58,276 nt of DNA. Source: Myxococcales bacterium (GTDB lineage: Bacteria > Myxococcota > Myxococcia > Myxococcales > JAKAPL01). Shown here one piece after another: positions 3,332 to 15,687 of the stretch; within the stretch, counting starts at the first letter, position 1, and each line of letters starts with the position of its first letter. The notes beneath the pieces were generated by a model. That model did not search any database, was not told where the DNA came from, and worked only from the letters and a program-made list of their open reading frames with translations. The DNA lies in assembly GCA_021783235.1 (NCBI GenBank), contig JAJXUD010000024.1:1-58276 (forward strand), given 5' to 3'. A program made the position numbers and the translations under genes.

Positions 3332-3394
3332 CGGGTTTTCGCCCGCTTCGTCGAAGGGCTGGGCCGGCGCGATCCGGACTCGCCGGTTCGGGTG

Positions 3395-3400
3395 TAGAGT
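3395..3400 (+). promoter_or_regulatory. Candidate -10 element (TAGAGT) of the sigma-factor operon
   Basis: TAGAGT lies exactly 15 nt before the GTG start of the sigma factor gene, and no Shine-Dalgarno sequence is visible between them. No clear -35 is present. The same spacing is seen at proS and the GH13 gene. See the finding on leaderless transcripts. Confidence 0.35.
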
Positions 3401-3409
3401 CCTTCGGGC

Positions 3410-4057
3410 GTGCCGCGCCTCTCCTCAGACCGCGCCCTGCTCGAGGCCTTTCGGGCAGGCCGGCGCGAGGCGCTGGAGACGGTCTACCTCCATTACGCCC
3501 CGGGAGTGGCCATGGTGCTGCGCCACGGCTTCAGCGTCCGCTCGTCGTCCGGGGGCCACCGCTTCCCTGGGCTCTCGCAGGGCGCGGATCTCCAGAACGG
3601 GCTGCAGGAGGTCTTCGCGCGCGCCTTCACCGAGGAGGCGAGGCAGGGCTACGACGGCCTCCGCCCGTACGCGGGTTACCTCGCCGCCATCGCCCGCAAC
3701 TGGGTGCTGAACGAGCTGCGCAAAGAGGGCAAGATCGGCCTCGTCGCCGAGCTGCCCGACGTCGACGCCCCCGACCCGGGCCCCGACCGGGAGCTCGAGG
3801 ACCGGGAGCTCGAGGCGCTCGTCCGGCGCTTCCACGAGCGGCTCGGGGACGAGGCGCGGCGGCTCTGGACGCTGCGCTTCGAGCGGCAGCTGTCGCAGGA
3901 CGAGGCGGCCGCGGCGCTCGGCAAGAGCCGCGTCCAGCTCCGCCGGCTCGAGGCGCGGCTCAAGGCCGATCTCCTCGCGGCGCTGCAGGACGCGGGCTAC
4001 CTCGAGGGGCGCGCGCCCGTCCTCTGGAGCGCGGTGGGGAAGGGGAGGCGCGGATGA
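3410..4057 (+). CDS. RNA polymerase sigma factor, ECF-like sigma-70 family
   Basis: A 215-residue two-domain sigma factor. Region 2 lies at about residues 55-110 (LQEVFARAFTEEA, then YLAAIARNWVLNELRKEGK, the -10 recognition helices). Region 4 is at about 145-195, with the helix-turn-helix LSQDEAAAALGKSRVQLRRL recognising the -35. Regions 1 and 3 are absent, as in ECF sigma factors. The first candidate start is the GTG at 3410. The next gene overlaps it by 4 nt (ATGA) and encodes a zinc-motif anti-sigma factor, the usual arrangement for a signal-controlled pair. The group members it regulates cannot be told from this window, but the operon itself is a natural target. Confidence 0.88.
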   Translation: MPRLSSDRALLEAFRAGRREALETVYLHYAPGVAMVLRHGFSVRSSSGGHRFPGLSQGADLQNGLQEVFARAFTEEARQGYDGLRPYAGYLAAIARNWVLNELRKEGKIGLVAELPDVDAPDPGPDRELEDRELEALVRRFHERLGDEARRLWTLRFERQLSQDEAAAALGKSRVQLRRLEARLKADLLAALQDAGYLEGRAPVLWSAVGKGRRG

Positions 4058-4881
4058 TCGACGCCGCCCGCGAGCACGCCTGGGCCCGCTCGGCGACCTC
4101 CCGCCTCTTCGAGACGGGGGAGCTGCGCGACGGAAAGTTCCGGCGGTTGCACGAGCACCTGCGCGGCTGCGAGGAGTGCCGCCGCTTCTACGACCGGGCC
4201 TCGGCGATCAAGCGGACCCTCGACGTCGGAGCGCCGCCCGTGCCCGCGGACGAGCTCCGTCTCCTCGCACGGGCCGCCGCGCGGGCGGCCGCTCGCCCGG
4301 CGATCGCCCCGAGGCGCGGCGCGCTCTGGCTCGCCGGCGCCCTCGCCGGGGCGCTCGGGCTCTCCTTCATCGTGCTCGCGAGGCCGACCGCGCCGCCGCG
4401 GGGCGAGCTCCAGGCGCGGGGCTCGACGCCGAGCGCGGCGCCCGGGGTGGGGGTGCGCGCCTTCTGCCTCTCGCCGAAGGGCGAGATCGTGGGGTCGGTC
4501 GAGCTCTCCGACCGGGCGGCCGCGGCCCCGAGCCTCGCCTGCGGGCTCGAGGACAGCCTCCAGTTCGCCTACTCGCGTCCGGCGGCGAGCGGAAAGGGGG
4601 CCGCCGCGCGGCTCTGGCTCGTGGCGACGCCGGGCGCGGGCGAGCCGCTCGTCTACCCGCTGGGGCGCGACGCCGACTCGGTCCCGCTGCGGGCGGGCGC
4701 GCTCGAGCTGCCCATCCCGGGCAGCGTGCGGCTCGCGGCGCGGCATCGCCCGGGGAGCTACCGGCTCGCCGCCGTCGTCTCGGCCGCCTCGCTCGATCGC
4801 GAAGCGCTCGCGAAGGCCGGCGCCGGGGAGCTCCCCGCGAACGGCAGCGCCTCCTTCGGCCGGCTCGAGGTGACGCCGTGA
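4054..4881 (+). CDS. Membrane anti-sigma factor with HX3CX2C zinc motif
   Basis: A 275-residue protein. The N-terminal cytoplasmic part carries the ZAS-type motif H35-x3-C39-x2-C42 (HEHLRGCEECRRFY). A single membrane segment follows at about residues 91-109 (LWLAGALAGALGLSFIVLA), then a periplasmic region of about 165 residues of unknown fold. This is the layout of an anti-sigma factor that holds the sigma factor at the inner membrane and senses an envelope signal. The ATG at 4054 overlaps the sigma stop codon, and its own stop overlaps the caspase gene start. The periplasmic part shows no motif I recognise. Confidence 0.85.
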   Translation: MIDAAREHAWARSATSRLFETGELRDGKFRRLHEHLRGCEECRRFYDRASAIKRTLDVGAPPVPADELRLLARAAARAAARPAIAPRRGALWLAGALAGALGLSFIVLARPTAPPRGELQARGSTPSAAPGVGVRAFCLSPKGEIVGSVELSDRAAAAPSLACGLEDSLQFAYSRPAASGKGAAARLWLVATPGAGEPLVYPLGRDADSVPLRAGALELPIPGSVRLAARHRPGSYRLAAVVSAASLDREALAKAGAGELPANGSASFGRLEVTP

Positions 4882-6155
4882 CGGGCCTCGGAGCGCTGCT
4901 CGCCTTGGCCGTCGCCGCCCCCGCGCCGCTGCGAAGCTACGCGGTGGTGGTGGGCAACAACCGCGGCCTCGACCCCGCGAACGCCCCGCTTCGCTACGCC
5001 GACGACGACGCCGTCCGGTACGCCGAGCTCCTCGCGCCCGGCGTCGCGGGGCTCCGGCTGCTCACCGTCCTCGACCGCGACACGCAGGCGCAGCACCCCG
5101 ACCTGGCGCTCCAGGCCGTCCCGCCGACCCGCGCCGCGCTCCTGCAAGCCCTCTCGGAGATCGACCGCGCGCTCGCGGAGGACGCGGCCCAGGGGAGGCG
5201 GACGCAGCTCTTCTTCGTCTTCGTCGGCCACGGCGGCATCGGTCCGGGCGGCGAGGGCTACGTCTCCCTGCTCGACTCGCGCTTCACCCGCGCGGATCTC
5301 TTCCGGGAGGTGGTGGCGCGCTCGCCGGCGACGTTCAACCACCTGGTCGTCGACGCCTGCGACTCGTACTACCTGGTCTCGAGCCGCGGGAGCGGCGCCG
5401 CGGACGAGCGGGGGCCGGATCGCTCGGAGGCGCTGCGCCGCTACCTCTCGGACGAGGAGCTCGACGCGCACCCGAACACCGGCGCCATCGTCTCGACGTC
5501 GGGCGACCGCGAGAGCCACGAGTGGTCGGTCTACCAGGGCGGGATCTTCACGCACGCGCTCGTCTCGGCCCTCCTGGGCGCGGGTGACGTCAACGGCGAC
5601 GGGATCGTCGACTACTCCGAGGTGGCTGCGTTCCTCCAGGCGGCCTCAGCGGCGGTGGCCGATCCCGCGGCTCGCCTCGAGGTCTTCGTGCGGCCGCCGT
5701 CCCAGGCGCTCTCGATCCCGCTCTGGCGCCTCGCCTTCTTCCCGCGCTTCGCGCGGCTCGGACCCGACGCCGAGGGGCCCTTCCACCTCGAGGCCCCCGA
5801 CGGGAGCCGCGCCGCCGACTTCGACAAGCCGCGCGGCTCGACCCTCGTGCTCGGGCTCTCGGAGCGACGGGGGCGCTACCGGCTCGCGCAGGCGGATCGC
5901 GAGGCCGACCTGCCCGAGGGGCCGCTCGTCGCCGACCCGGGGCAGTGGCGCGACGCCCCGGTCGCCGCGCGCGCGGATCTCGCCGGTCCGCTCGAGCGTG
6001 GGCTCTTCCGGGTCCCGTTCGGCGCGCCCTTCTACGAGGGCTTCGTCGCCGCGGGGCGCCGCTTCGTGCCCGTGGCCATGGACGCTCCGCCGTTCGTGGC
6101 GTCGTTTCCGTCGGCGCCGCCGGAGCTGCCGCTCAAGGACCCGTTCTCGCCATGA
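4878..6155 (+). CDS. Caspase-fold (peptidase C14-like) protease with EF-hand-like motif
   Basis: A 425-residue protein. A weak N-terminal hydrophobic stretch (residues 3-15) could be a short signal sequence. The caspase fold begins at RSYAVVVGNNRG. The catalytic dyad is visible: His118 in FVFVGHGGIG and Cys161 in HLVVDACDSYYL. A second-subunit-like part contains STSGDRESHEWSVYQGGIFT and a calcium-loop-like GDVNGDGIVDYSEV. The last 150 residues are beta-rich and unassigned. The GTG start overlaps the anti-sigma stop (GTGA), and the stop overlaps the TPR gene. Caspase-like proteases cut after defined residues, often on activation by Ca2+ or partners; here an operon partner such as the anti-sigma factor is a plausible but untested substrate. 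Confidence 0.85.
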   Translation: MTGLGALLALAVAAPAPLRSYAVVVGNNRGLDPANAPLRYADDDAVRYAELLAPGVAGLRLLTVLDRDTQAQHPDLALQAVPPTRAALLQALSEIDRALAEDAAQGRRTQLFFVFVGHGGIGPGGEGYVSLLDSRFTRADLFREVVARSPATFNHLVVDACDSYYLVSSRGSGAADERGPDRSEALRRYLSDEELDAHPNTGAIVSTSGDRESHEWSVYQGGIFTHALVSALLGAGDVNGDGIVDYSEVAAFLQAASAAVADPAARLEVFVRPPSQALSIPLWRLAFFPRFARLGPDAEGPFHLEAPDGSRAADFDKPRGSTLVLGLSERRGRYRLAQADREADLPEGPLVADPGQWRDAPVAARADLAGPLERGLFRVPFGAPFYEGFVAAGRRFVPVAMDAPPFVASFPSAPPELPLKDPFSP

Positions 6156-6766
6156 CCGCGCTCGGGCTCGCCTTCGTCGTCGTCGCCGCCGCCGCGCCCG
6201 CTCCCGCCCAGCTCGATCTCGCCCGCGCCAGCTTTCAGGGCGGCGCGTCCTCCTTCCGGGCCGCGCGCTACGACGACGCCGCGCGGCAGCTCGTCGCCGC
6301 CTTCGGCTTCGATCCCGATCCCGCGATCGCCTTCGACGCGGGCGAGGCGCTGCGGCGCGCGGGAAAGCCCGCCGAGGCGGTCCACTACTACCGGCTCTAC
6401 CTCGCCGCCCGCCCCGACGCCGAGGACGCCGGGGTCGTCCGGGGCGTCGTCGCCGCGCTCGAGCGCGCCTCTCCTCCGGCCGACGCGCGGGCGGTGGCCC
6501 CCGCCGCCGCTTCGGCCGCGAAGACCGTCTGGCCCGCCTACGCCGGGGCCGCCCTGACGGCGGGAATCTTCGCGGCCGCCGGGATCTTCGGCGCCCTCGC
6601 GCAGCAGTCGAGCGCGACCCTCCTCGGGTCGCAGCACCCGACCAGCGAGGCCACCTCGCTCTACCGCTCGACCAAGTCCGACGCGGCCATCGCGAACGAC
6701 CTCTACGCCGTGGGCGGGATCGCCGCGGCGGCCACCGGCGCGCTGATCCTCTGGGAGTTCCGATGA
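6152..6766 (+). CDS. TPR-like exported/membrane protein
   Basis: A 204-residue protein with an N-terminal signal (MTALGLAFVVVAAAAPAPAQ), two or so TPR-like helical hairpins at about residues 25-100 (ARASFQGGASSFRAARYDDA; AVHYYRLYLAARPDAEDAG), and hydrophobic helices near the C-terminus at about 130-155 and 185-204. TPR units mediate protein contacts, so it may act as an adaptor for its operon partners. The start overlaps the caspase stop (ATGA) and the stop overlaps the next start. The TPR assignment is by helical pattern and is moderate. Confidence 0.7.
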   Translation: MTALGLAFVVVAAAAPAPAQLDLARASFQGGASSFRAARYDDAARQLVAAFGFDPDPAIAFDAGEALRRAGKPAEAVHYYRLYLAARPDAEDAGVVRGVVAALERASPPADARAVAPAAASAAKTVWPAYAGAALTAGIFAAAGIFGALAQQSSATLLGSQHPTSEATSLYRSTKSDAAIANDLYAVGGIAAAATGALILWEFR

Positions 6767-7938
6767 GCCGCCGCGCCGCCGCGCTCCTGCTCCTCGTCGC
6801 GGGCGCCGCCTGCAACCCCCCCGTCGACGGCGCGCCGTGCGCGGGGGACGGCGAGTGCCCCGAGGGACAGTCGTGCAGCCCGCTCGGGCAGTGCGAGCCG
6901 GCCCCAGACGGCGGCGAGGCCAGAGGATCCGCGGCGGGCTGCCCCGACGCGCCGGCGGGGACCCTCGTGGTGGCGATGGGGGGAGGCAGCGACGCGATCG
7001 GCAACGGCTCGTCCGCCTGCCCCCTCGCGACCGTCACGAAGGCGCTCGCGGTCGCGGCCGCCTCCGGGGGAGCGGTCACCATCTCGGTGCACGCCGGGCC
7101 GCAGGCCTACTCGGTCGCGACCGGGGAGCGGCTGCCGCTCGTCCTGGGGCCCGGGGTGAGCCTGGTCGCGGCCTCCGGCGAGACGCCCCGCCTCGCGGGG
7201 GCGGGGCCGGTGGGGGACGGATCGAGCAGCCTCGCGGCGGTCTGGATGCAGGGCGGCGTCCTCCAGGGGTTCGAGCTGCTGGGGAGCGGCGCGCCCCTGG
7301 GCGACGGCGTCTACTGCACGGCGGGAAGCCCGGCGCTCTCGGGGGACGAGATCCACGGCTTCGCCGCGGGGGTCGTCGTGGCCGGGAGCTGCGCGGCGAC
7401 CCTCGATCGGTGCGACGTCCACGACGAGGGGCAGGAGTCCCAGCCCGGGGTCGGGGTGGAGGTGATCGACGAGGCCAGCGCCTCCGTGGCCGGGTCGCGG
7501 ATCCACGCGAACGGCACCGGGGCGATCGTCCGCTCGACGGGCGCGACGCCGACCGAATTCGCCGGCGTCGAGGTCACTGGGAACTCGGCCGACGGCGTCG
7601 ACTGCCTCGAGACGTCTCGCCTCTCGATGCGGTCCAGCTTCGTCCACGCGAACGGTGCCGTGGGCGTCTCGATCTCCGGCGCCTGCGCGGCCGACCTGTC
7701 GGGCGCCGACGCCGCGGGGGGATGCGGGGCCGCGAACACTTTCGTCTGCAACGGGGAGCACGATCTGTCGACGACCTCGTCCTCCCCCGTGGCGGCGGAC
7801 CACGACGACTGGGATCAGGATCCGCCGGGCGAAGAGGACGTCTTCGTCGCGGAGGGCAGCGCGGTGACGCTCTCGCCGACCTGCACCAACGTGGCGGGCG
7901 CCTCGAACCCGGCGCCCCCCCCGACCGGCTGTCAGTAG
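6763..7938 (+). CDS. Cell-surface beta-helix (DUF1565-type) lipoprotein
   Basis: A 391-residue protein with a lipoprotein-like signal (LLLLVAGAACNP) and a short Cys-rich segment (CAGDGECPEGQSCSPLGQC). The rest is a right-handed beta-helix-like region: a DUF1565-type opening (SDAIGNGSSACPLATVTKAL), repeated short turns (IHGFAAGVVVAGSCAATLDR) and a C-terminal ADLSGADAAGGCGAANTFVC. Such helices often bind or decorate surface polysaccharide; no catalytic motif was seen. It closes the sigma/caspase operon by an ATGA overlap. The next gene is a clear paralog. Confidence 0.75.
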   Translation: MSRRAAALLLLVAGAACNPPVDGAPCAGDGECPEGQSCSPLGQCEPAPDGGEARGSAAGCPDAPAGTLVVAMGGGSDAIGNGSSACPLATVTKALAVAAASGGAVTISVHAGPQAYSVATGERLPLVLGPGVSLVAASGETPRLAGAGPVGDGSSSLAAVWMQGGVLQGFELLGSGAPLGDGVYCTAGSPALSGDEIHGFAAGVVVAGSCAATLDRCDVHDEGQESQPGVGVEVIDEASASVAGSRIHANGTGAIVRSTGATPTEFAGVEVTGNSADGVDCLETSRLSMRSSFVHANGAVGVSISGACAADLSGADAAGGCGAANTFVCNGEHDLSTTSSSPVAADHDDWDQDPPGEEDVFVAEGSAVTLSPTCTNVAGASNPAPPPTGCQ

Positions 7939-8004
7939 CGTCGGAGATCCAGCGGTCCCCCGTCGCGTGTAGGGACGGATGGCTTCTGACCAGGAGATCC
8001 TCCC

Positions 8005-10122
8005 ATGCGCCTCTCCCTCGCGCTGCTCGCGGCTGCCCTCGCCTTCGGCTGCACCGCCTGCTGCGGCCACACGGCCGTTCCCCTGGGGGCCGACGGTGGC
8101 AGAGGATCGACGGACGGGGGCGTCTCTTGCCTCGGCAAGCCGGATGGCACCTCGTGCGGCTTGCACCTCGCCTGCCTCGGCGGCCTCTGCTCCTGCCAGC
8201 CCGGCGGGAGCTGCTCCGTCGCGGGCAACCCGTGCCAGGCGGGGAGCTTCTCCTGCGGCGGCGGCACGCCCTCGTGCGGCAACGTCCAGAACCTCCCCGA
8301 CGGCACGAGCTGCGGGACCGGGCAGGTCTGTCGCCAGGGGAGCTGCGTCGCCTGCAGCGCGGGCTCGACCTGCCTCGCCGGCCCCTGCCTCGTCGGGACT
8401 CTCTCGTGCGGCAGCGGCTCCTCGCAGTGCGCGAACCCCCAGCCCGCGCAGAACGGCATCTCCTGCTCGGCGGACGGCGGCTTCGTCTGCGACAACGGGA
8501 GCTGCATCGCCTGCGCCGCAGGGAGCAGCTGCAATCCCCCCGGGAACCCGTGCATGGTGGGCGCGTTCGACTGCAGCAGCGGGGTCGGCGTCTGCGCGAG
8601 CACCATCCCGGCGCCCGACGGCACCTCCTGCGGCGGCGCGCTGGTCTGCCTCGGCGGGAGCTGCACGACCTGCGTGACCGGGGCCGCCTGCGATCCGCCG
8701 ACCAACGCCTGTCAGGTCGGCAGCCTCACCTGCGGCGCGAGCCCGTCCTGCGTCGGTCCGTACAGCAACGCCCCGAACAACAAGGCCTGCGGCAACGGCC
8801 AGATCTGCCAGTCGGGCAACTGCAGCTGCGCGAACCCCTGCAACCAGGCCGGCTCGACCTGCGCGAGCGGGACCCAGGTCGCGACCTGCACGCTGGATCC
8901 GCAGAACGGCTGCTTCCTCCAGTCGTTCTCGAACTGCTCGTCCGGGCAGGTCTGCGCCGGCGGGAGCTGCGTCTGCCAGAACGGCTGCAGCGCGGGCCAG
9001 GTGCAGTGCGCGGGCAGCTCCGCCGAATACTGCCAGGCGGGCGCGGGCGGCTGCCTCTCCTGGTCCGCCCCGACGGCCTGCCCCGGTGGCGTCAGCTGCG
9101 TGAACGGGGCCTGCGCGTGTCCCGCGCCCCAGGCCGGCCAGCTCGTGGTGAACGCCTCGAGCGGCAGCGACGGCCTCGGCAACGGCTCGGCCAGCTGCCC
9201 GTTCGCGACGATTAGCCACGCGCTCGCGGTGGCTGCCTCGCAGGGGACGCCGGTCACCATCTCGTTGAAGGGCGGGAGCTACGCGCTGGGCGAGTCCTTC
9301 CCGCTCGTCGTGCCGGCCAACGTGACGATCAGCGGCGGCTCCTTGATTCAGGGCAGCGGCCCGGTGGGCGACGGCTCCGGGATCTCGGCGACGGTCGTCC
9401 TGAACGGCGGCTCCTTGTCGGGCGTCGAGCTGAAGCCGGCAGTCCAGGACTCCCCGTCGACCGCGGGCATCTACTGCACCGCGCTCTCTCCCTCGGTGAC
9501 CAACGGGGTCGAGATCCATCGGTTCCAGTACGGCGTCTACCTCTCGGGCAGCTGCAGCGCGACCATCGATGGGGCGGACATCCACGACAACGGGCAGGGG
9601 AGCGGTGGCGGCGACGGCATCGACGTGGTCGGGAGCGCGAGCGCGACCGTGCAGAACAGCCACGTCCACTCGAACGCCACCGGGGTCTCCTTGGCGAGCG
9701 CCGGCTTCAACCCGACCTCTCTCATCGACGACGAGATCGACTCGAACCAGGCCGATGGCGTCGACTGCCTCGCGACGGCGAAGCTGACGATGCGGCTCGA
9801 TTTCGTCCACCAGAACCACGCGAACGGCGTCGCGATCTCGGCGAGCTGCTCCGCCGATCTCTCCGGCGCGGGAACGGCCGGCACCCCGTGCGCCGAGGCC
9901 AACACCTTCACCTGCAACGCGACGGGTGGCGCGGGCGCCGCGGACGTGATCTCGACCTCCTCGATTCCGGTCGCGGCGGATCACGACAATTGGGACTTCG
10001 AGCCCCCTTCGGCCGAGGACGTCCGCGCGGCCTCCGGCGGCTCGGTCGCGACCTCTCCGACCTGCAGCACGCAGCCGGGCGCCCCGAATCCGCAGGGCGC
10101 GGCTCCCACGGGTTGCCCGTGA
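8005..10122 (+). CDS. Paralogous beta-helix lipoprotein with extra cysteine-rich repeats
   Basis: A 705-residue protein with a lipobox (LAFGC). Residues about 40-375 are five or six cysteine-rich units of the form DGTSCG-x-GQVC-x-GSCVAC. The remainder matches the upstream gene almost segment for segment: SDGLGNGSASCPFATISHAL, GPVGDGSG, IYCTALSPSV, ADLSGAGTAG and SSIPVAADHDNWDFEPPSAED. The two genes are therefore a tandem duplication in which this copy gained, or the other lost, the cysteine-rich part. AGGAGA (7990-7995) precedes the ATG. Its 66-nt separation from the operon and possible upstream promoter leave co-transcription open. Confidence 0.78.
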   Translation: MRLSLALLAAALAFGCTACCGHTAVPLGADGGRGSTDGGVSCLGKPDGTSCGLHLACLGGLCSCQPGGSCSVAGNPCQAGSFSCGGGTPSCGNVQNLPDGTSCGTGQVCRQGSCVACSAGSTCLAGPCLVGTLSCGSGSSQCANPQPAQNGISCSADGGFVCDNGSCIACAAGSSCNPPGNPCMVGAFDCSSGVGVCASTIPAPDGTSCGGALVCLGGSCTTCVTGAACDPPTNACQVGSLTCGASPSCVGPYSNAPNNKACGNGQICQSGNCSCANPCNQAGSTCASGTQVATCTLDPQNGCFLQSFSNCSSGQVCAGGSCVCQNGCSAGQVQCAGSSAEYCQAGAGGCLSWSAPTACPGGVSCVNGACACPAPQAGQLVVNASSGSDGLGNGSASCPFATISHALAVAASQGTPVTISLKGGSYALGESFPLVVPANVTISGGSLIQGSGPVGDGSGISATVVLNGGSLSGVELKPAVQDSPSTAGIYCTALSPSVTNGVEIHRFQYGVYLSGSCSATIDGADIHDNGQGSGGGDGIDVVGSASATVQNSHVHSNATGVSLASAGFNPTSLIDDEIDSNQADGVDCLATAKLTMRLDFVHQNHANGVAISASCSADLSGAGTAGTPCAEANTFTCNATGGAGAADVISTSSIPVAADHDNWDFEPPSAEDVRAASGGSVATSPTCSTQPGAPNPQGAAPTGCP

Positions 10123-11492: not shown

Positions 11493-14400
11493 ATGATCCG
11501 TCGACTCTCGTTGCTCGCCACGCTCGTCTTCGCCGCCTCCGCCTGTTCGCCCAAGAAGGTCCCGCCTCCCCCGCCGAACGTCCAGGCGACCGCGGCGACG
11601 ACCGAGCTCGCGAGCCAGCTGGTCAACGGCACGGCCGAGTACCTCTCCACGGTCCAGGTCACTCGCACGCCGGCCTTCACCGCGACCGAGACGGCCCCCG
11701 CGAGCGTCGTCGCCGACCAGTACACGGCCCGCTTCTCGATGACTCTGCCGCTCCAGCCGGGCAAGAACGTCTTCAGCTTCACCGCCACCGACTCGAACGG
11801 GACGAGCCAGCCGAGCACGGTGACGATCACGCGCAACGCCGATGCCCCCGCCAGCCTGACGCTGCTTCCGCTGAGCCCCATCGTGACCGACGGCAACCTC
11901 ATCGTCCGGGCGACCGTCGCGAACCCGGAGCCGATCTCGCTCGCGGGCTTCACGATCGACTTCAGCGCGGTGCCGGGCACCGGCGCGTCGCCGGACGGCG
12001 GTCCGGCCGAGGGCGCCATCGTCGGAACCGCCGTGACGGACGCGAGCGGCGTCGCCCAGGTGACGCTCCAGGGGCTGACCGTTGCCGGTCCCTGGACGGT
12101 CACCGGCACCTCGAAGGACAACCCGCAGGCGAGCGCCAGCGCCCAGGTCATCGTCAATGGCGGCTTCGGGACGGCCGCGCTCGATCTCGTCCTCACGGGG
12201 CAGGACGTCAGCGGGAAGGCCGTGACGTCGGCCAACGGTGCCCTCACGGTCGCGGCGGGAACCTCCGTGACCGCGCTCATCGCTCCGGCGGGCAAGGACC
12301 AGGGCCCCTACCTCTCCGTGCCGTTCACCCTCTCGACGAACGCCCCGAACGGCGGCGTCTTCGGCAACACGATCGTCGGTCTGAACGCCGCCGCGGCGAC
12401 CCCCTACGAGGTCGCTGCCACCGTGCCGCCCTCGGCGGCCACGGGGGATCAGCTCGCGGTTCTGACCACCGCGCTCACGGTCCAGCCCGGCCGCACCGGC
12501 GAGATTTCGGTGACCCTCTCCCAGTCCCAAGCGACCGCGGATCAGTCCGTCTCGTACCGGGCCATCCCGCAGGACGGCTTCGGCAACCCGACGGGTGACG
12601 CGATCTCGGTCTCCATCGTCGACGCCGCCGGGAACGTCGTCTACCCGGGCGTCACTCCCGCGCTCGCGCAGGTCACCGGCAACGCGACCAACCAGACGGG
12701 CACCGTGCAGATCTACGTGGCGAACAGCGCGAGCGGAACCTCCGAGACGATCGGCGGATCGACCGTCAGCGTCGGCGCCGGGACCGCCTGGACGGTGAAA
12801 TTCGCCGACGCCACCGCCTCGGGGATCTCCGGCAGCGCGAGCCTCGCCGTCACGGCGGGCACGCCAGCGAGCGTCTCCGTGAACCTCGGTTCGAATGGCC
12901 CGAACGTCAGCGCCACCGTCGTGGCCGGGACGAACTTGCCCTTCTCGACGACCGTGCTGGACGACCACGGGAACCCGATCGTGGGCCAGCCGATCCAGGT
13001 CGCGACCTCGGCGCCGGGCGCGGTGGTCACCACGACGAGCCCGGGCCAGGGCGATATCTCGAACCTGACCGTCGCGAACGGCTCGTCGAACCCCTACTAC
13101 GTCTGGGCCACCGTGCCCGTGACCGGCCTCACCTCGCCGCCCATCCAGCTCACCGTCACGCCGGCCGCCGCGAGCGCGCTCCACTTCCAGGTGGCGGCCT
13201 TGAACCTTCTGGCTGGCGGCGCCGTGCCGTACGACTGGACGATCACCGACGCGAACGGCAACCGGGTCGACCTCACCTCGGGAGGCGCGCCGGTCATCCC
13301 GACGCTCTCGGTCGTCTCGGGTCCGGTGACCGGGGCGCTCCTGAGTCCGCCGCCTCAGGCGCCTTCCTTCGACGCGACGACCGACCTCGGCACGGGCGAG
13401 CTCGCCTTCACGGCCGGCTCGCCGGCGGGCGTGTACACGATCGAGGCGAGCGTCCCCGCCTCGTTCAACGTGGCCCCGTCGTTCCAGACGCTGCTCGTCT
13501 CGGCGCCGCAGGACGTCGTGCCCCCGACGGTGAGCGTCTCCGTCACCGACGGAAACGGCGTCAGCCTGGCTGGCGCCACGGTGTCGGGCGGCCAGACCAT
13601 CGTCGTCACCGTCACCGCCTGCGACGACACGAACCTGACGAGCCTCTACGTCCAGTTGAGCGGGGCGTTCAACCGGACGCGGGGCCCCGTCGTTCCGACG
13701 AACAACGCGCCGGGCACGGGCGCCTGCCTCGGTGGAATCCAGGCCTCGCAGAGCTGGAACGTCACGGTCAACGGCAGCGGCAGCGAGCAGCTGGTCGCGA
13801 CGGCCACCGACACGGCGAGCAACACGGGCGTCAGCCCGGTGGTGACCTTCAACGTGAACCCGCTCCAGGTCGACACCAACTGGATCAGCGGGGCCAACGC
13901 GGTCGTCCAGCTCGGGGCGAAGAGCCTTCCGCTCAACGGGCCCATGGGCGTCGTCGTGGACAGCTCGACCCCGAACGACCCGCAGCTCTACCTCGCGCAG
14001 AACGGCGACGCGACGATCATGCAGTACGACACCACCACGGACGCATACTCCGCCCTCGTGAACACGGGGACGATCGGGCTCGGCGCGCAGAACTTCGACA
14101 TCACGGAGATCGCGAACACGCTGTACGTGAGCTCGAACGCGACCAACCTCAACGGCGGCGGCGGGTCGCCAGCCATCGTGCAGATCCCGGTGGCGGCCCC
14201 CGCGACGCTCTCACTCTTCAGCGACGACACCAAGGTCACCTCCATGGTTCCCGAGGGGCTCGCCAACTGCCCCCTGGTGACCGGCACAGGGAGCACCGGG
14301 GCGCTCCTCGCGCTGGACGATCAGTCCATCGGCGGTGGCACGAACAACGAGCAGGCGGACTTCCTGAACCTGTCCTCGGGCAGCCAACTCACCGGAAGCC

Positions 14401-14912
14401 CGGTCGCGCTCACGGGCGGAGGGGTGTTCTCGACGCTGCGGCGGCCCTTCTCCGGCGTGACCGGGACCAACGTCGACGGCAGCTGCGCGATCACGGGGAC
14501 GCTGTCCGACGTCGTCTTCGCCTCGGACGACAACCAGAACGCCATCTGGTGGTTCAGCTTGAGCCCCACCTTCAAGAGCGCCCAGACGATCCAGCCGGGA
14601 CAGCAGTGCTCGCTGATGAACGGCCCGAACAACAACTGCGCGAACCAGCCCGCGGGCATCCGGCTCTCCGCGAACGACCACCTCGTCTGGGCCGATGCGG
14701 GCAACGGCATCGTGGCCTACGCCAAGGTCGATCCCGCCACCGGAGCCCTCGCGGCCGGCACGACTCCTGCCACCCTCATCCGGGGGCTCGCGAATCCAAT
14801 CGGCCTCGCGTTCGATTCGGCCGGGCACCTCTACGTCGTCGACAACGGCGTCGGGACGGCCAACGGCGGTACGGGCGCGGTCTACCGGATCACGCTCGGC
14901 ACGGGCTTCTAG
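11493..14912 (+). CDS. Large lipoprotein with Ig-like repeats and a C-terminal propeller-like domain
   Basis: A 1139-residue protein with a lipoprotein signal (LLATLVFAASACSPKK). From about residue 20 to 790 there is a series of Ig/Big-like beta-sandwiches of about 90-110 residues, with recurring phrases such as SVSLAGATVSG and VTVTACDDT. The final 330 residues look like a beta-propeller of NHL or SMP-30 type (GVVVDSSTPNDPQLYLAQNG; GLAFDSAGHLYVVDNGVG). The ATG at 11493 is preceded by AAGGAGAA (11479-11486), so it was preferred to the ATG at 11469. It starts 23 nt after the barrel gene and is probably in its operon. A role in adhesion or surface structure is a guess. Confidence 0.72.
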   Translation: MIRRLSLLATLVFAASACSPKKVPPPPPNVQATAATTELASQLVNGTAEYLSTVQVTRTPAFTATETAPASVVADQYTARFSMTLPLQPGKNVFSFTATDSNGTSQPSTVTITRNADAPASLTLLPLSPIVTDGNLIVRATVANPEPISLAGFTIDFSAVPGTGASPDGGPAEGAIVGTAVTDASGVAQVTLQGLTVAGPWTVTGTSKDNPQASASAQVIVNGGFGTAALDLVLTGQDVSGKAVTSANGALTVAAGTSVTALIAPAGKDQGPYLSVPFTLSTNAPNGGVFGNTIVGLNAAAATPYEVAATVPPSAATGDQLAVLTTALTVQPGRTGEISVTLSQSQATADQSVSYRAIPQDGFGNPTGDAISVSIVDAAGNVVYPGVTPALAQVTGNATNQTGTVQIYVANSASGTSETIGGSTVSVGAGTAWTVKFADATASGISGSASLAVTAGTPASVSVNLGSNGPNVSATVVAGTNLPFSTTVLDDHGNPIVGQPIQVATSAPGAVVTTTSPGQGDISNLTVANGSSNPYYVWATVPVTGLTSPPIQLTVTPAAASALHFQVAALNLLAGGAVPYDWTITDANGNRVDLTSGGAPVIPTLSVVSGPVTGALLSPPPQAPSFDATTDLGTGELAFTAGSPAGVYTIEASVPASFNVAPSFQTLLVSAPQDVVPPTVSVSVTDGNGVSLAGATVSGGQTIVVTVTACDDTNLTSLYVQLSGAFNRTRGPVVPTNNAPGTGACLGGIQASQSWNVTVNGSGSEQLVATATDTASNTGVSPVVTFNVNPLQVDTNWISGANAVVQLGAKSLPLNGPMGVVVDSSTPNDPQLYLAQNGDATIMQYDTTTDAYSALVNTGTIGLGAQNFDITEIANTLYVSSNATNLNGGGGSPAIVQIPVAAPATLSLFSDDTKVTSMVPEGLANCPLVTGTGSTGALLALDDQSIGGGTNNEQADFLNLSSGSQLTGSPVALTGGGVFSTLRRPFSGVTGTNVDGSCAITGTLSDVVFASDDNQNAIWWFSLSPTFKSAQTIQPGQQCSLMNGPNNNCANQPAGIRLSANDHLVWADAGNGIVAYAKVDPATGALAAGTTPATLIRGLANPIGLAFDSAGHLYVVDNGVGTANGGTGAVYRITLGTGF

Positions 14913-15075: not shown

Positions 15076-15687
15076 TCAGCTACCGGAGCGCTTGATCCAC
15101 TGATCGACGACCCCGTCCCCGTCGGTGTCGATGCCGATCCGGTCGATCTTCCCACCCTCCCAGTACTCCCAGGTGTCGACCCTGCCGGTCCCCTTGGTGT
15201 CGCGCTCCTTGCGGACCAGCTTGCCCTTCTCGTAGAACTTCCAGACGTTCGGCTTGCCGTTGAAGTCGAGCGCGAGCTCCTTCTTCGTCGGCACGCCCTT
15301 CTCGTCGAAGTAGATGATCTCGTCGACCTTGCCGTCGAAGTCGAGGTCGAGCGCTTCCTTCACGACCGCGCCGGAATCGTTGTACCAGCGCCAGACGTCG
15401 ACCTTCCCGTCGTCGTTCAGGTCCATCTCCTTGCGGACGAGGATCTGGACCGGCTTGCCGGTCTTCGGGTCGACCGCCTGCTTCGAGTACTCCCAGACGT
15501 CGGGTTTCCCCTCGTGGAAGAGGTCGAAGGTCTTGACGGTGAGGTCCCCCTCCTGCTTCTCGTGGATGCCCTGGATCTCCTCCGCCGTCTGTTTCGGGCC
15601 GGCCTTCTGAGAGGCCGCCTGGGAGGAGCCGCAGCCCGCCAAGGCGAGCGAGGCGGCGAGCGCGAGGGGTGCGAGAACGCGACGCAT
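15076..15687 (-). CDS. Lipoprotein with repeated DxDxDG calcium-loop-like motifs
   Basis: A 203-residue lipoprotein (signal ending SLALAGC). The mature part consists of about six units of roughly 25 residues that each hold a loop such as [28 protein letters not shown] or [11 protein letters not shown], followed by an aromatic and a Gly turn. These resemble EF-hand/dockerin or type-3-thrombospondin loops and may bind Ca2+. The ATG at 15687 was chosen because the signal peptide begins there and a promoter stands just upstream; an in-frame ATG at 15717 would fall within the -35 spacer. No ribosome binding site is visible. Confidence 0.72.

Follow-up and report, generated by a model that had tools for sequence, protein, structure and literature searches.

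What could a caspase-family protease be doing in an operon that otherwise encodes a sigma factor, a membrane-bound anti-sigma factor, and a surface lipoprotein? Prokaryotic caspases are widespread, few of them having a known substrate, and in the Myxococcota, a phylum of predatory bacteria, the gene for a caspase predicted to act beyond the inner membrane almost always adjoins those for a sigma factor and for the membrane-anchored protein that inhibits it. We addressed this question for one such operon in a 58,276-nucleotide stretch of myxococcal DNA, referred to here as the window. The genes concerned are the following:

3410..4057, + strand: ECF-type sigma factor, above the TIGR02937 cut-off; adjoins the caspase in a conserved arrangement
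4054..4881, + strand: single-pass anti-sigma factor with an HX3CX2C motif; AlphaFold model obtained, NF052375 match weak
4878..6155, + strand: caspase-family (C14) protease with a signal-peptide-like N terminus, above the PF00656 cut-off
6152..6766, + strand: TPR-like protein with a signal peptide and a C-terminal two-helix membrane hairpin; TPR matches weak
6763..7938, + strand: Cys-rich lipoprotein with a DUF1565/right-handed beta-helix domain, above the PF07602 and PF13229 cut-offs
8005..10122, + strand: second Cys-rich DUF1565/beta-helix lipoprotein, predicted regulon member with a promoter at 7946-7976; above the PF07602 cut-off

Our analysis makes it quite probable that this operon encodes a transmembrane switch, in which the caspase acts as the site-1 protease of regulated intramembrane proteolysis through a predicted cleavage of the anti-sigma factor. 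Judging from the sequences, this cleavage probably switches on the surface lipoprotein genes.

The initial annotation had described five plus-strand genes joined by four 4-nucleotide overlaps, and we find exactly these (ATGA or GTGA) at that place. It had also read sigma regions 2 and 4 as intact, in agreement with a score of 53.3 bits against the cut-off of 42.9 bits of the NCBIfam sigma70-ECF model TIGR02937. No Rfam match was found within the window, and no plasmid relative was found. Further along, the window holds a gene for a 1133-residue protein that ends in an NHL repeat (11511-14912, + strand), downstream of the lipoprotein genes, and one for a small protein with a weak EF-hand match (15076-15687, - strand), near the operon.

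The initial annotation had staked its proposal on co-conservation of the caspase with the sigma/anti-sigma pair, and the three prove to be both co-conserved and co-inherited. Searching raw six-frame open reading frames with profiles, we found the sigma, anti-sigma, and caspase trio in 72 of 80 caspase-seeded Myxococcota loci. Among the other eight, the anti-sigma factor alone was found in five (four of them on small contigs, the fifth with a long N stretch), the sigma factor alone in one, and neither in two (L036 and L059). When loci were instead seeded with the anti-sigma profile, regardless of any listed caspase, 34/38 held a sigma factor and a caspase-profile match, and a separate scan of genome contigs, with duplicates removed, recovered all three genes in 29 of 30 further full-flank loci; all these counts cover related sequences and are hence not independent. 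A caspase match is present in 155 of 195 Myxococcota genomes, the window's own genome having one such caspase, and named hosts of the module include Archangium, Corallococcus, Pyxidicoccus, Hyalangium, Plesiocystis, Enhygromyxa, and Nannocystis. The genes run in the order sigma-anti-sigma-caspase in 84 loci and are split, mostly divergently, in 21. Over 92 loci, the distance matrices of the three proteins correlate at 0.86 to 0.90 (r=0.90 for caspase and anti-sigma factor, 0.86 for sigma and anti-sigma factor), and none of 500 permutations reached as high. The recurrence of this gene set across the phylum is more than chance, and sigma factor, anti-sigma factor, and caspase form a phylum-wide Myxococcota module.

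With respect to the caspase itself, a PDB sequence search returned only EF-hand proteins, so a fold search was needed. Using the AlphaFold model (pLDDT 87.7), Foldseek matched MALT1 (top), metacaspase 9, and caspases, and the protein passes the Pfam Peptidase_C14 cut-off (PF00656; 28.5 versus 21.4). Profile, fold, and His/Cys dyad together place it in family C14, its proteolytic activity and R/K specificity being predictions. The residues concerned are the following:

5229..5231, + strand: catalytic His118, invariant (73/73)
5358..5360, + strand: catalytic Cys161, within D159-A-C161, invariant (73/73)
5586..5621, + strand: EF-hand loop DVNGDGIVDYSE, residues 237-248, conserved family-wide and matching solved EF-hand proteins

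The dyad named in the initial annotation, His118 and Cys161, is thus kept in every one of the 73 aligned relatives that cover it, and what had been called a Ca-loop-like segment turns out to be a canonical 12-residue EF-hand loop. D44 and D159 are invariant among the aligned relatives as well and may form an acidic S1 pocket. In 134/142 relatives, a hydrophobic stretch lies ahead of the first caspase strand, compared with 4/120 sigma N termini, signal peptides and membrane helices being called from hydropathy only. The caspase is consequently predicted to act outside the inner membrane, in the periplasm.

How such a protease might be kept at the membrane is suggested by its neighbor. Long caspases mostly end with one or two membrane helices; short caspases have no terminal helices, and behind nearly all of them lies a TPR-type gene, the product of which has such a hairpin at its end. 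A hairpin profile built from the TPR genes only matches the C terminus of the fused caspases (best E value, 1.8e-10), twelve loci falling below 0.05 over nearly the full hairpin, whereas background matches are mostly partial single helices. As the hairpin is fused to the caspase elsewhere, we infer that the caspase and the TPR protein work as one membrane complex. This revises what had been said of the TPR protein. The TPR matches are weak, with no TPR model reaching its cut-off, and the hairpin is its best-defined part; the idea of an adaptor gives way to that of a membrane-hairpin partner.

The anti-sigma factor is predicted to consist of a cytoplasmic zinc anti-sigma domain, a membrane helix, a disordered linker, and a periplasmic beta domain. 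Both features read earlier from its sequence, the zinc motif and the one membrane helix, are present: the motif is H35-x3-C39-x2-C42, and the AlphaFold model places the helix at residues 94-109, followed by a low-confidence linker (110-131) and strands from 133. The HX3CX2C residues (H35/C39/C42) and the adjacent cognate ECF sigma factor identify the protein as a ZAS anti-sigma factor, with zf-HC2 scoring below its cut-off and the zinc motif being lost in part of the family. A fold search with the anti-sigma factor gave only weak matches to RhoGDI-like sandwiches, none under an E value of 0.001, and we assign no name to the periplasmic domain; DUF4384 was weakly seen in 2 of 53 family members.

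Two short motifs, one in this linker and one in the caspase, connect the candidate protease to its candidate substrate (↓ marks the predicted cut):

4408..4422, + strand: predicted cleavage site L119-Q-A-R122↓G123 in the anti-sigma linker; all family members that span this column have R/K
5376..5390, + strand: predicted autocleavage site V167-S-S-R170↓G171, within the caspase loop that follows the catalytic Cys; R/K in 151/151

The linker column is R or K in 117/117 alignments covering it and in 51/51 of a second set (168/168 in total). Over 161 unique sequences, the preferences are F/W/L at P4, A/P/V/S at P2, R (86%) or K (14%) at P1, and G/S (94%) at P1', giving the pattern hydrophobic-x-small-R/K-Gly/Ser, of which the window version is LQAR-G. 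A similar motif follows the helix in 5/24 caspase-free zinc anti-sigma factors versus 143/157 family members, with a similar overall R/K content. The caspase loop carries the same kind of motif 8 to 9 residues after the catalytic Cys: among 151 unique caspases, P1 is R/K in all, P4 is hydrophobic in 97%, and P1' is Gly in 93%, and in the AlphaFold model the motif starts a low-confidence (disordered) loop. None of eight module-free C14 caspases of the same order has it. The corresponding stretch of animal caspases, between the large and small subunits, is the place of autocleavage, and R/K at P1 is a requirement of the non-caspase C14 proteases examined to date (PMC5756287). The loop motif is likely an autocleavage site, as far as its sequence and position indicate. 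We also tested K/R covariation between loop and linker, which comes mostly from one clade.

Some family members vary in these features. In a divergent subfamily (L120, L122-L126, L136, and L137), the anti-sigma linker and the caspase loop alike carry K-Gly, and some of its loci continue with a gene for a conserved lipoprotein that starts with CGG/CGD-x-SNE. Another locus (L127:4238-6163; contig C47 of genome G155) has the same sigma and anti-sigma genes, with a linker K, but lacks a caspase. Immediately after them comes a gene for a secreted, matrixin-like metalloprotease (HExxHxxGLxH) that might stand in for the caspase.

The initial annotation had suggested that the caspase cuts the anti-sigma factor. 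This suggestion gains from the periplasmic prediction, the invariant linker R/K, and the matching loop motif, the cleavage itself standing as a prediction. A single-pass anti-sigma factor with a predicted periplasmic domain is accompanied in this genome by the site-2 protease RseP (above the TIGR00054 cut-off), the combination expected of regulated intramembrane proteolysis. Building on what was computed (gene set, co-conservation, catalytic residues, R/K and loop motifs, hairpin fusion, promoter sites, and RseP), we propose a model in which export, membrane topology, cleavage, signal, Ca2+ role, and the order of events all remain conditional. The single-pass anti-sigma factor would hold the sigma factor at the inner membrane. 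The caspase would be exported and kept at the membrane via the hairpin of the TPR protein or, in many relatives, via a hairpin within the caspase itself. The trigger may be Ca2+ acting on the EF-hand loop or a ligand sensed by the anti-sigma periplasmic domain. On this signal, the caspase would process itself after R170 and then cut the anti-sigma factor after R122, some ten residues beyond the membrane, and the remaining stub would be taken by RseP. The freed sigma factor would then transcribe its own operon and the genes of Cys-rich surface lipoproteins.

This last step can be compared with the predicted promoters of the window:

3371..3401, + strand: predicted operon promoter GATCCG-N15-GTGTAGAGTC, common to the sister-family operon G058:C48
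7946..7976, + strand: second predicted promoter copy, one of three exact matches in the genome

The pattern GATCCR-N15-GTGTANRGNC occurs exactly three times in the 4.58-Mb genome: upstream of the operon, of the gene for the lipoprotein at 8005, and of a gene for another Cys-rich lipoprotein, on contig C63. It was tuned partly on two of these sites, the C63 site not being among them. The sister genome G057, where a caspase match was not found, has no exact match to the pattern. A Cys-rich lipoprotein gene follows the TPR gene in 26/26 loci with a TPR gene. Promoter motif and conserved lipoprotein genes thereby support the earlier view of the lipoproteins as outputs, as a predicted regulon. When promoters were searched for spaced dyads across all families, nothing clear emerged apart from GATCC. 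Separately, GATCCA lies upstream of the sigma gene in 14/56 loci versus 1.3 in shuffles, and the divergent sigma/caspase intergenic regions of L053-L078 contain conserved blocks (CGTCA, TTGTCG, and TGGATCG). On contig C63, the promoter-bearing Cys-rich lipoprotein gene (L255:2856-5621; genome G000) is followed by an open reading frame of highly repetitive short units.

Alternatively, the caspase might itself be an output: the sigma factor would induce a secreted caspase acting on surface lipoproteins or on further proteins of the envelope, and another protease would release the anti-sigma factor. The window caspase does lie within the sigma-driven operon, lipoprotein genes come next at all TPR-gene loci, and in many loci (the 21 split ones) the caspase sits in a divergent operon with a lipoprotein. 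However, such a scenario leaves both the invariant linker R/K and its match to the caspase loop unexplained, and family sigma/anti-sigma pairs without a caspase are rare (4/38 without a profile match). We therefore regard it as unlikely.

Less likely still is that the R/K-Gly motif is structural or contacts a ligand and that its link with the caspase is nonproteolytic, the linker serving, for example, as a pseudosubstrate inhibitor of the caspase. The R/K sits just ahead of the beta domain and could hold the start of that domain, above all in the divergent K-type subfamily, where it is close to the first strand; furthermore, L127 and L135 retain it (as K) without an adjacent caspase. Yet in the window model, R122 falls in the low-confidence linker, ten residues ahead of the first strand, and the P4, P2, and P1' preferences resemble those of a protease site and recur in the caspase loop. 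Finally, it is very improbable that the operon serves immunity or cell death in the manner of Craspase or EACC systems, with a cytoplasmic caspase answering invaders: although a type III-E CRISPR caspase-fold protease is established to free an ECF sigma factor (PMC10028731) and operons of ECF, caspase, and TPR genes have been predicted elsewhere (PMC8195603), we set this reading aside because of the export signal, found on nearly all the caspases, and the membrane anti-sigma factor, the lipoprotein regulon, and the lack of a DUF1822 or CHAT match likewise argue against it.

Site-1 cleavage by the caspase thus remains our preferred reading for this operon. We consider it possible, more tentatively, that the duplicated periplasmic caspases of the whole phylum act as site-1 proteases, each with its own sigma factor and lipoproteins, a MALT1-like motif, and EF-hand gating. 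For the family, our analysis names a candidate substrate, a single bond, and a readout; with these, the long-standing question of the role of bacterial caspases apart from cell death can be put directly to the test in Myxococcus and related bacteria. If the proposal is true, anti-sigma control would gain a new class of protease, the many caspase genes of the Myxococcota would be explained, and caspase signaling without cell death would be a routine form of bacterial envelope signaling.

Among known systems, the proposed switch resembles DegS/RseP/RseA, PrsW/RsiW, SipS/RsiV, and Prc/IutY in its single-pass anti-sigma factor, the presence of RseP, and a predicted near-membrane cut that frees an ECF sigma factor. 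It differs from them in its candidate site-1 protease, a caspase; the first proteases named in a review of site-2 proteases are DegS, PrsW, signal peptidases, Prc, and PerP, and caspases go unmentioned there (PMC10202637). The sigma-caspase association is not new, since Asplund-Samuelsson (2012) had sigma-70/metacaspase operons, covering four of the five Myxococcus xanthus metacaspases and occurring also in Anaeromyxobacter, Haliangium, Sorangium, Ralstonia, and Fibrobacter (PMC3501461). Those operons are of the same type as ours, but the sections of that paper drawn on here do not propose the anti-sigma factor, export, cut site, hairpin partner, or regulon (PMC3501461). Within the literature searched, the anti-sigma factor, cut site, hairpin partner, regulon, and mechanism appear to be new.

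An independent precedent is provided by Craspase (Cas7-11/Csx29) with Csx30 and CASP-sigma, in which a caspase-fold protease cuts a sigma inhibitor and frees an ECF-like sigma factor (PMC10028731). Craspase is a cytoplasmic, RNA-guided TPR-CHAT system, whereas the operon described here has a C14 protease with an export signal and a membrane anti-sigma factor; in Pfam, the window protease matches Peptidase_C14 but none of the CHAT models, and we do not assign it to the Craspase type. The EACC2-caspase/ECF/DUF1822 neighborhoods (PMC8195603) likewise bring together a caspase, an ECF sigma factor, and a TPR gene. Unlike them, the window has a membrane anti-sigma factor and no EACC or DUF1822 match; with no DUF1822 in the window proteins and NF047832 (EACC1-associated caspase) far below its cut-off, it was not placed in that group. 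With MALT1 and metacaspases, the window caspase has in common the fold and an R/K-directed motif, hydrophobic-x-small-R↓G. MALT1 cuts LxP/SR↓G, for example, LQPR↓G in HOIL1 (PMC4659944), a site resembling the anti-sigma linker motif, LQAR-G in the window. The window caspase differs from those proteases in being bacterial and predicted periplasmic, in having an EF-hand loop in its catalytic domain, and in belonging to a sigma-factor pathway. This EF-hand loop, with its possible role in Ca2+ activation, is different in kind from the metacaspase 280-loop (PMC5756287).
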